A DNA stretch of 64,000 nucleotides. It comes from Luteolibacter flavescens (GTDB lineage Bacteria; Verrucomicrobiota; Verrucomicrobiia; Verrucomicrobiales; Akkermansiaceae). The notes under the pieces were generated by a model. It did no database searches. It saw only the letters and a program-made list of their open reading frames with translations, and was not told the origin of the DNA. A program made the translations under genes and the position numbers. Positions 55,767-59,327 of the stretch are shown one piece after another (the stretch's first letter is position 1; every line of letters starts with the position of its first letter). Location of the stretch: the NCBI RefSeq assembly GCF_025950085.1, contig NZ_JAPDDS010000002.1, forward strand, positions 248,001 through 312,000, given 5' to 3'.

Positions 55767-57224
55767 CTAACTGCCACCCGCCGCCAGCTTCAGATCCGCG
55801 ACGAACTGCCGGTATTCGGATTCCTTCCTTAGCTCATCCACCCGCAGGAGATAGGACGGGTGCACCGTGAGGATCACCCGCGATGCGACATGAGGCGCGG
55901 CGACGACCCCGCGATGCCTGGTGACTTTCACGCCTGACCCGAGCAGGGATCCGGCCGCTGTCCCGCCGAGGAGGATCACGATCTCCGGCGCGACCCGCGA
56001 CAGCTCCGCGAGCAGCCACGGCTTGCATGCCTCGATCTCCCCGGCGGCGGGCTTCTGGTGCAGCCGCAGCTTCCCCCGCGGCGTCCACTTGAAGTGCTTC
56101 ACCGCGTTCGTCACGTAGATGCCGGAGCGATCCAGACCCGCCTCTGCAAGCGCCTGATCCAGCAGCTTTCCCGCGGGGCCGGTGAAGGGGCGGCCTTCCA
56201 GGTCCTCGCGATCTCCCGGTTGCTCGCCCACGATCATGATGCGCGCATTGTCCGGCCCATCGCCCGTCACCGCCCCTGTGGCATGTTCCCACAGCGGACA
56301 ATGGCGGCAGGCGTGGACCATGCGGTTCACGTCCGTCAGGCTGAGGTCGGCGACGTCAGCGGGATCTTCCGGCACTTCCACCGGCGCGGACCGCTCGCGC
56401 AGGTGATCGAGGTAGGCATTCACCGGGGCCCGCTTCACTTCGCGCAGCGGCGTCTCGATCATCGCCTGGCTGCGGCCGGAGCTCTGGCGCGAAAGTTCCT
56501 CGATCAGGTCGGCCTCCGGCAGGTTCTTCCAATAGCGCTTCGGCATTTCGGACTGCATCGCTTTCAGCTTCAGCCGTGCGGGATTGAAGATGCTGCGGTA
56601 GTAGGTCCGCCAGATGCCCTCCATCACGTCGGGGTCGTCGCACGGATTCCGCATGACGCCCGGCGTGAGCTGGAATTCCTCCGCGATCCAGTGCGCGCAA
56701 CCTTTCGGCGTGAAGATGGACCAGTCCATGTTCGCGAAGCGCTTGCGGAAAAAGGGCGCTCCGGCCTCGACGATGTAGTGATCCGGCTCGAACCACGCGA
56801 CGAAGCGCTCGCGCCCGTCCTCCGCCTCGCCGATCTTCCGGAAGCGGACGAAGGCGTGCATCTTGTGGATTTCGCGGCGCACGTTCTTCGCGAGCATCCT
56901 TGCCATTGCCACATCGGCATCGCTGGCGATTTCCATCAGCCGCCGCTCGCCGCCTTTCACAATGCGCCAGAGCAGCCGGTAGAGCAGCGCCCAGCGGCGG
57001 GTGTCGGCATGGCACGCGACGGTCTGCGCCAGCTCCACGAAGGCGGGTGGCACCGCGGGCGCTCCGCCCCGGCCCACAGGAGGCGCCAGCACCGGCGCGG
57101 ACTCGAATAGGCTCGTCACCGGCGCTTCCCAGATCACCTCCGCCGGCGGGACATCCCGCGCCACGAGGCCGCGCGCGGCGGCACGCCACGTGGTAAAGGA
57201 CTCGCCGGGGTCAACGCAGTGCAT
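55767..57224 (-). CDS. UdgX-family uracil-DNA binding/glycosylase protein with DUF4130
   Basis: The 485-residue protein has an N-terminal DUF4130 region (residues about 1-240: RRWALLYRLLWRIVKGGERR, FVAWFEPDHYIVEAGAPFF, DWSIFTPKGCAHW) and a C-terminal uracil-DNA glycosylase domain. The latter includes an iron-sulfur Cys pair (ACRHCPLWEHATG), GEQPGDREDLEGRPFTGPAG and the UdgX loop RGKLRLHQKP with His389, the residue that links to uracil sites in UdgX, and TVHPSYLLRV. It overlaps the upstream radical SAM gene by 14 bases. The two families are regular neighbours and form a DNA repair unit. Confidence 0.88.
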   Translation of the reverse strand: MHCVDPGESFTTWRAAARGLVARDVPPAEVIWEAPVTSLFESAPVLAPPVGRGGAPAVPPAFVELAQTVACHADTRRWALLYRLLWRIVKGGERRLMEIASDADVAMARMLAKNVRREIHKMHAFVRFRKIGEAEDGRERFVAWFEPDHYIVEAGAPFFRKRFANMDWSIFTPKGCAHWIAEEFQLTPGVMRNPCDDPDVMEGIWRTYYRSIFNPARLKLKAMQSEMPKRYWKNLPEADLIEELSRQSSGRSQAMIETPLREVKRAPVNAYLDHLRERSAPVEVPEDPADVADLSLTDVNRMVHACRHCPLWEHATGAVTGDGPDNARIMIVGEQPGDREDLEGRPFTGPAGKLLDQALAEAGLDRSGIYVTNAVKHFKWTPRGKLRLHQKPAAGEIEACKPWLLAELSRVAPEIVILLGGTAAGSLLGSGVKVTRHRGVVAAPHVASRVILTVHPSYLLRVDELRKESEYRQFVADLKLAAGGS

Positions 57225-58449
57225 GGCCGAAGAGATCGAGCTGCACCGGCTTCGGGGCCAGCCGTGCGAGCAGACGGTCGGTATCCAGTCCCTCGCGCGC
57301 GGGGTGGTGGTCTGCCACGATGATGAAGGGCCGCACCTTTGGCAGCGAGATGCGCAGCCGCGCGAGGTCTGCCAGCCGCAGGAGGGTCAGGCGGCGGATG
57401 CCGAGCAGGCGGTCCACGTTCTTCACCCCGAGACCCGGGATGCGCAGCATCTGGTCGCGCGATGCTGTCTGGAGGTCGAGCGGGAATTCGTGGCGATTCC
57501 GCAGTGCCCACGCGAGCTTCGGGTCGAGGTGCAGGTCCAGGTTCGGATTCTCCGGCGTGAGGATCTCGGATGTACTAAATCCATAGTATCTCATCAGCCA
57601 GTCCGCCTGGTAGAGCCGGTGCTCCCGCATCAGCGGCGGGGCCGCGGGCGGCAGGATGGACGAGGGCTCCGGGATGGGGCTGAAGGCGGAATAATACACC
57701 CGCCGCAGCCGGTAGGCCCGGTAGAGCTCGTCGGACCGCGCGAGGAAGTCCGCATCCGTGGAAGGGTCCGCACCTACGATGACCTGCGTACTTTGTCCCG
57801 TCGCATGGCGCAGCTTCCGGTCCCCGCCGCGCTTGCGGTCCGCGGCATCGTCCAGCTTCACGCGGATGCGGCCCATCGCCTGCTTCGTGCGGCCCAGGTT
57901 CTTTTCCGGCGCGAGCCGGTCGAGGCCTTGCTGGGTGGGCAGCTCCAGATTGATGCTGATGCGGTCGGCATAGCGCGCCGCCTGTTCGATGAGTTCCGGC
58001 GATGCCTCCGGGATCGTCTTGAGATGGATGTAGCCGCGGAAGTCGTGCACCTCCCGCAGAGTGCGCGCCACATTCACCACCTGCTCCATCGTGTGGTCGG
58101 CGCTGCGGATGATGCCGGAGCTGAGGAAGAGCCCCTCGATGTAGTTCCGCTTGTAGAAATCCAGCGTGAGCCGCACCGCTTCCTCGGCGGTGAAGGCGGC
58201 GCGCCGCACGTTGCTCGACCGGCGATTGATGCAGTAGTGGCAATCGTAGAGGCAGCGGTTCGTCAGGAGGATCTTCAGCAGCGAGATGCACCGGCCGTCC
58301 GGCGCGTAGCTGTGGCAGATGCCCGCGCCGCCGGTGGACCCCACGCCGGTCCCGCCGAGCGAATCGCGCTTCGTCGCCCCGGAGCTGGCGCAGGAGGCGT
58401 CATACTTCGCGGCGTCGGCGAGGATGGAGAGCTTTTGATCGAGATCCAT
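57211..58449 (-). CDS. Radical SAM protein, putative DNA modification/repair
   Basis: The 412-residue protein binds a [4Fe-4S] cluster through NRCLYDCHYC, the radical SAM CxxxCxxC motif, and has the domain order of the TIGR03916 family that partners with UdgX/DUF4130 proteins. Further marks are FLSSGIIRSADHTMEQVV, SINLELPTQQGLDRLAPEKN and a helix-hairpin-helix near the C-terminus (MLRIPGLGVKNVDRLLGI) that should bind DNA. The reaction is unknown. It is the first gene of the operon; a LexA-like palindrome is just upstream of its start. Confidence 0.88.
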   Translation of the reverse strand: MDLDQKLSILADAAKYDASCASSGATKRDSLGGTGVGSTGGAGICHSYAPDGRCISLLKILLTNRCLYDCHYCINRRSSNVRRAAFTAEEAVRLTLDFYKRNYIEGLFLSSGIIRSADHTMEQVVNVARTLREVHDFRGYIHLKTIPEASPELIEQAARYADRISINLELPTQQGLDRLAPEKNLGRTKQAMGRIRVKLDDAADRKRGGDRKLRHATGQSTQVIVGADPSTDADFLARSDELYRAYRLRRVYYSAFSPIPEPSSILPPAAPPLMREHRLYQADWLMRYYGFSTSEILTPENPNLDLHLDPKLAWALRNRHEFPLDLQTASRDQMLRIPGLGVKNVDRLLGIRRLTLLRLADLARLRISLPKVRPFIIVADHHPAREGLDTDRLLARLAPKPVQLDLFGHALR

Positions 58450-58467
58450 GGTGGTCAGGCGAATACT

Positions 58468-58481
58468 AGTTCACTTGAACT
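58468..58481. promoter_or_regulatory. LexA-like SOS box
   Basis: AGTTC-ACTT-GAACT is a 14-base palindrome with the GTTC-N4-GAAC core of the Verrucomicrobia LexA motif (consensus TGTTC-N4-GAACA); it is part of an 18-base palindrome (58466-58483). It lies 18 bases upstream of the radical SAM start codon. A half-site ACTTGAACT recurs at 58551-58559 nearer the LuxR gene. Confidence 0.65.
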
Positions 58482-58592
58482 AGCGCGCGAGCAAAAGTTG
58501 GTCCCGCGGGGGTCCTGTTAGAGCGGCAGTTTGCACGACCGTTGCACTCAACTTGAACTCGGTCCGATCAGTCGTTAGATTGCTCATCTCCC

Positions 58593-59327
58593 ATGGAACG
58601 TCTGCGGCATTCCGACTACCGGCGCTTGCTCGACTTTGTCGCAGCACTGCAAGAGCCGATCGAGTCCGGCACCTTCGGCGAAAAGATCGTGGCGCTCACC
58701 GCGGAGCTGCTACCCGGGGCCACCATCGCCTTCGACCAGATCCGCGAGTCGGACAATCACTACACCATCGACCACAATGTGCCGCTGGATCTGCCCGAGC
58801 AGATGCGGATGGCCGCGCGAATCCGTGACCTGTATCGGGAGAATCCCGTCTATAATTACATCCAAGGCGGCGGCACCGGCCCCGTGGTCGATATCGCGGA
58901 CCTGATGCCGCGCCGCAGGTTTCAGAAGACGGACTTCTATCAGGACATCTTCCGCCCCTACGGCATCGAGCACCAAGTGAATGTGTTGCTCTCCCGTGAA
59001 GGCTGGATCAATGCCCTCACAATCAACCGTGATAAGGCGATCGACGGCCGCTCAAAGACCCTGCTCGCGCTGGCCAGCCGGCACATCCGCCTTGCCCACA
59101 GGCAGGCCTGCCTCACGGATAGCCTGCGCCGCGGCGGTACGGAGGAGTCGCTCACGCCGCGCGAGCAGGAAGTTTTCCGCTGGCTCCGCGAAGGGAAACG
59201 GAATTCCGAGATCGGCATCATCCTCGGCTGCTCGCCCCGCACCGTGGACAAGCATGTCGAGAATATCCTGCGAAAGACCGGCGCGGAGACGCGGACCGCG
59301 GCGGTCCGCATGGCGCTTGGCGAGTGA
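58593..59327 (+). CDS. LuxR-type helix-turn-helix transcriptional regulator
   Basis: A 244-residue protein. The C-terminal 60 residues are a LuxR helix-turn-helix: LTPREQEVFRWLREGKRNSE and IGIILGCSPRTVDKHVENIL, with RKTGAETRTAAVRMA. The N-terminal 170 residues are a single domain of GAF-like character (LTAELLPGATIAFDQIRESD, YIQGGGTGPVVDIADLMPRR) without a receiver Asp pattern, so it is not a standard response regulator and may bind a small ligand. It diverges from the radical SAM operon with the LexA-like box between them. Confidence 0.8.
   Translation: MERLRHSDYRRLLDFVAALQEPIESGTFGEKIVALTAELLPGATIAFDQIRESDNHYTIDHNVPLDLPEQMRMAARIRDLYRENPVYNYIQGGGTGPVVDIADLMPRRRFQKTDFYQDIFRPYGIEHQVNVLLSREGWINALTINRDKAIDGRSKTLLALASRHIRLAHRQACLTDSLRRGGTEESLTPREQEVFRWLREGKRNSEIGIILGCSPRTVDKHVENILRKTGAETRTAAVRMALGE

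Follow-up and report, generated by a model that had tools for sequence, protein, structure and literature searches.

The locus analyzed here raises the question of whether the palindrome in front of a radical SAM-UdgX operon in Luteolibacter flavescens is the operator through which LexA, which represses DNA-repair genes as long as the DNA is undamaged, places this operon under SOS control. A first-pass annotation of the window, i.e., the whole stretch of 64,000 nucleotides that was analyzed, had proposed as much from the letters alone. Based on comparisons within the genome and across relatives, we predict with high confidence that LexA uses the palindrome as its operator for this operon, so that DNA damage most likely induces the uracil-binding repair genes downstream of it. 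The features on which the argument turns are the following.

58466 to 58483, minus strand: predicted LexA operator (intact, distal), CTAGTTCAAGTGAACTAG, with the core AGTTC-N4-GAACT.
58463 to 58468, minus strand: possible -10 hexamer TAGTAT, read from the sequence and sharing bases with the end of the intact operator.
58452 to 58465, minus strand: decayed LexA box TATTC-GCCT-GACCA, which agrees with TGTTC-N4-GAACA at 8 of 10 positions and is separated by 2 bases from the ATG.
57211 to 58449, minus strand: radical SAM gene of family TIGR03916 (rSAM_link_UDG), 539.6 bits against a cutoff of 343.5, with the CxxxCxxC cluster motif.
55767 to 57224, minus strand: fusion gene for a TIGR03915/DUF4130 domain followed by UdgX (TIGR03914), based on family models and the alignment with 6ajo.
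58593 to 59327, plus strand: LuxR-type regulator, the divergent neighbor, based on family models and neighborhood comparison.

Positions 58466 to 58483 read CTAGTTCACTTGAACTAG, a sequence that forms a perfect inverted repeat of the 8+2+8 type. The 14-base core of this repeat (58468 to 58481) is separated by 18 bases from the ATG of the radical SAM gene (58449 to 58447), and the coordinates therefore confirm the earlier description of an 18-base palindrome with the core AGTTC-ACTT-GAACT 18 bases from the radical SAM start. The palindromic form alone is unremarkable: two 8+2+8 palindromes were found in the window while dinucleotide shuffles predict 2.1, and because chance yields about as many, we rejected the form by itself as evidence. 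By comparison, AGTTC-N4-GAACT occurs once in the window versus 0.025 times expected, and WGTTC-N4-GAACW once versus 0.08 times. Throughout the 5.9-Mb genome, WGTTC-N4-GAACW is present at 15 places versus 4 for the reversed pattern used as a control; counting the motif genome-wide with up to two mismatches gave no signal (902 versus 854 for the control). Since TTCNNNNGAACTAG was found at one place only, we dismissed the possibility of a dispersed repeat. A chance palindrome without any role would fit the ordinary frequency of such repeats in the window and the expectation that ∼4 of the 15 genome-wide sites arise by chance; however, the match to the motif, the location ahead of the radical SAM gene, and the presence of a box in orthologs jointly make chance very unlikely, and we consider this reading highly improbable.

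The genome encodes one clear LexA (160 bits, above the cutoff) and RecA. Perfect TGTTC-N4-GAACA boxes are present in both corresponding promoters (TGTTCCAAAGAACA for lexA and TGTTCAGCCGAACA for recA), and this is the motif that the first-pass annotation had named; a perfect box of this type is also present in 18/18 lexA promoters of the genus. All of these lexA promoters (L003 and L158 to L174) contain, 15 bases on from the full box, a TGTTC half-site, which makes up a conserved one-and-a-half operator. The palindrome before the radical SAM gene fits 8 of the 10 specified positions of TGTTC-N4-GAACA. The inner GTTC-N4-GAAC is exact, while the two outer positions of the core are A..T where the lexA/recA box has T..A. 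Each of the single outer changes was observed in relatives; the double change was observed only here among the radical SAM promoters examined. Using a scoring matrix built from the lexA, recA, and other presumed SOS sites, we scanned the window and found that 58466 to 58483 is its top match. The score of 11.9 bits is below those of all reference sites (15.9 to 22.9 bits) due to the outer A..T in place of T..A. Because of this low score, LexA may bind the predicted site less tightly, and early induction or partial leakiness of the operon could be conceivable.

Among the 15 WGTTC-N4-GAACW sites in the genome, several directly precede classical SOS genes: lexA, recA, ssb, a PA0069-family radical SAM gene (SplB-like), a helicase gene of the DEAD-box type (Hel308-like match), and, at the position of ImuA, a gene that is followed by an error-prone-polymerase-like frame; the ImuA label is given by position alone, and the protein was matched by no family model. 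Further genes also lie close to such boxes. In L102 (1501 to 1984), a perfect TGTTCCAGTGAACA box is located 14 bases ahead of a 151-amino-acid frame for which Pfam gives a weak Whirly-like match; this frame is possibly an unnamed SOS gene. In L099 and L105 (site at 1501 to 1514), a perfect TGTTC-N4-GAACA is located 84 bases upstream of each of two genes for paralogous ribbon-helix-helix proteins of 116 to 119 amino acids, which are perhaps SOS-controlled mobile-element genes. A TGTTCATGTGAACT box is present at the start of a phage-like frame that shows ParB-like and DNA methylase matches (L100, 1501 to 2974). Separately, the window itself encodes near its start (∼1889 to 2707; 1081 to 1899 of L004) a phage-repressor-like protein of 272 amino acids that combines a stretch resembling a helix-turn-helix with a LexA-like S24 peptidase half and scores 34.9 bits with TIGR00498, i.e., below the cutoff.

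If the palindrome is a LexA operator, a similar box would be expected before the same operon in relatives. We therefore collected 62 distinct promoters of orthologous radical SAM genes and scored the 40 bases preceding each start codon for WGTTC-N4-GAACW, with dinucleotide shuffles for comparison. At least 8 of 10 positions were matched in 51/62 promoters (3.7% of shuffles), at least 9 in 31/62 (0.3%), and all 10 in 15/62 (none), these counts being unweighted for kinship and so not representing independent events. The encoded proteins are ∼62 to 93% identical, and the promoter sequence around the box varies widely. No box was found before the operon in four of the family genomes whose orthologous promoters were examined (L122, L127, L131, and L155). 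The box is thus kept before orthologous operons, and, together with the boxes of lexA and recA in this genome, its conservation supports the proposal that the UdgX operon is SOS controlled. In relatives, the box is usually located 0 to 2 bases before the ATG, and in some 9 to 12 bases; in the genus, it is located 1 to 2 bases before the ATG in 11/12 relatives. With its 18 bases, the position of the intact box in the genome analyzed here is atypical for the genus. During this comparison, we also observed that seven family genomes (L114, L115, L130, L132, L133, L136, and L137) have a radical SAM frame without ATG, GTG, or TTG near the conserved N terminus; the frames open INTxxKLEIL with ATA or ATT just past a LexA-like box, which suggests that these genes use rare ATA/ATT start codons.

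The LuxR-type gene reads away from the site, as described previously, and starts at 58593 on its other side. It could be argued that the palindrome is instead the operator of this regulator, i.e., a lux-box-like dyad that controls both the LuxR gene and the radical SAM operon. The two genes share the intergenic region in which the site is located, 111 bases ahead of the LuxR start, and the dyad opens with CT and closes with AG; quorum-sensing boxes often begin with CT and end with AG. In addition, a partial copy, AGTTCAAGTTGAGT, is present at 58546 to 58559; however, it fits only 7 of 10 positions. Among the loci compared, 12 from genus relatives and 38 more from the family, the LuxR gene lies beside the operon only in the genus relative G039, the LuxR protein of which is 85% identical, and G039 has no such palindrome apart from a normal LexA box. 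In G006 and G045, where the LuxR gene is located elsewhere, the palindrome is absent upstream of it, so that the palindrome is not kept with the LuxR gene across relatives. Moreover, a LexA-type box precedes the operon in genomes without the LuxR gene. On the basis of the single adjoining relative and the orthologs lacking the palindrome, we rejected this idea, which we regard as extremely improbable. Given how rarely the LuxR-type gene adjoins the operon (1/12 genus relatives), it is, judged by neighborhood, only a neighbor outside the radical SAM-UdgX unit.

Returning to the LexA operator, the promoter contains a second box that the first-pass annotation overlooked. At 58452 to 58465, where relatives have their box, this genome has TATTCGCCTGACCA, and this decayed box aligns without gaps to TGTCCGCACGAACA, the box of the close relative G039. 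At the same offset, 10/12 genus orthologs match at 9 to 10 of 10 positions. The intact palindrome is located 16 bases upstream of the decayed box, and G039 has no box there. The distance from an AACTTTT stretch to the ATG is about equal in this genome and in G039, and this conserved spacing argues that the promoter frame was retained while the operator moved. In the anchored promoters, relatives have TAnTGT at roughly the position of TAGTAT, the possible -10 element, and it overlaps their own box. The simplest reading of the two boxes looks like operator turnover, and we hold it to be reasonably probable that there was recent turnover within the genus, in which the conserved box decayed in this lineage and a new perfect palindrome appeared 16 bases upstream, or else that the two boxes form a strong/weak tandem pair. 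If turnover is true, SOS control was retained, with its strength or timing possibly altered.

The tandem alternative, which would refine rather than replace the identification of the LexA operator, holds that the two boxes act together, with the distal palindrome as the strong LexA site and 58452 to 58465 as a weak second site 16 bases away. It draws on the observations that the decayed box, which occupies precisely the ancestral offset, still matches at 8 of 10 positions, that it is among the 10 best matrix matches of the window, and that the lexA promoters of the genus likewise combine a full box with a second, partial one. However, its score of 6.7 to 8.0 bits is far below that of every reference site and it may be only a relic; we consider joint action of the boxes rather improbable.

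What would LexA control from this operator? The start of the fusion gene overlaps the radical SAM stop by 14 bases, which argues that the two genes are cotranscribed and probably translationally coupled. The UdgX part could be aligned to 186 residues of the UdgX structure 6ajo, with the motifs GEQPG, R-loop GKLRLH, and HPSYLLR retained; GKLRLH is aligned to GKRRIH of 6ajo, with His389 at the position of His109. These correspond to the motifs defined for UdgX, i.e., motif A GEQPG, an R-loop ending in the cross-linking histidine, and motif B HPS..LLR (PMC10359453). The protein therefore shares the GEQPG motif, the R-loop with its terminal histidine, and the HPS..LLR motif with the UdgX of 6ajo/6io9 (PMC10359453), but differs in that it carries a fused TIGR03915/DUF4130 domain and has a radical SAM protein as its partner. 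In our literature search, no paper was found that names UdgX together with radical SAM.

Based on these observations, we suggest a model in which, in the undamaged cell, a LexA dimer would occupy AGTTC-N4-GAACT, which lies immediately upstream of the presumed -10 element and in contact with it, and would block the promoter. Upon DNA damage, RecA filaments would stimulate LexA self-cleavage and the operon would be transcribed. UdgX would then cut uracil from DNA and covalently cap the abasic site by means of the histidine in its R-loop, and the radical SAM partner would act on the same lesion or adduct. We infer from the operon structure that the radical SAM protein is directed at uracil-derived lesions or at the UdgX-DNA cross-link and that the two proteins function jointly in repair. 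The box types found before this operon in several groups (see below) argue that the pair is best studied under SOS induction, which narrows the search for the radical SAM chemistry to lesions or adducts that arise in the SOS response, such as uracil, abasic sites, and the UdgX-DNA cross-link.

The link between DNA damage and the radical SAM/UdgX pair, which the first-pass annotation had put forward, is supported by the sequence but is not new, since it is already in the literature (PMC8565304). SOS regulation of COG1573-COG4277 is reported there for Verrucomicrobia and Alphaproteobacteria with reference to Erill 2016 and da Rocha 2008, together with evidence for SOS control in Bacteroidetes (PMC8565304). 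As that article relays it, the Verrucomicrobia LexA regulon of Erill et al. 2016 shares with our locus the TGTTC-N4-GAACA type of box and the COG1573-COG4277 (UDG/rSAM-HhH) operon, cited as SOS regulated; the locus here differs in the outer bases A..T, the box 16 bases upstream of its usual place, and the decayed copy at that place. Likewise, in the Alphaproteobacterial regulon, described there from da Rocha 2008 for Caulobacter, the operon is under a LexA box, but this box is the direct repeat GTTC-N7-GTTC. The SOS network of Bacteroidetes, with a noncanonical LexA, has the same two-gene unit with evidence of SOS control but differs from this genome in LexA type and motifs (PMC8565304). Our analysis thus adds a well-supported further instance of a known link, and the only novelty is the move of the site by ∼16 bases within an otherwise similar promoter.

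We also examined the same operon in other phyla. In Betaproteobacteria, CTGT-N8-MCAG (CTGT-N8-ACAG or CTGT-N8-CCAG) precedes it in 4/5 loci; CTGT-N8-ACAG is the LexA box type of the Beta/Gamma group. In Alphaproteobacteria, GAAC-N7-GAAC or GTTC-N7-GTTC precedes the orthologous operon in 49/55 loci (0.6% of shuffles), and this direct repeat is what LexA recognizes in that class (PMC8565304). Judged from these boxes, one operon is guarded by different LexA proteins with different box types, and such differences, which extend over Verrucomicrobiota, Alphaproteobacteria, Betaproteobacteria, and, according to the literature, Bacteroidetes, support the view that the radical SAM-UdgX pair is a true DNA-damage response unit.
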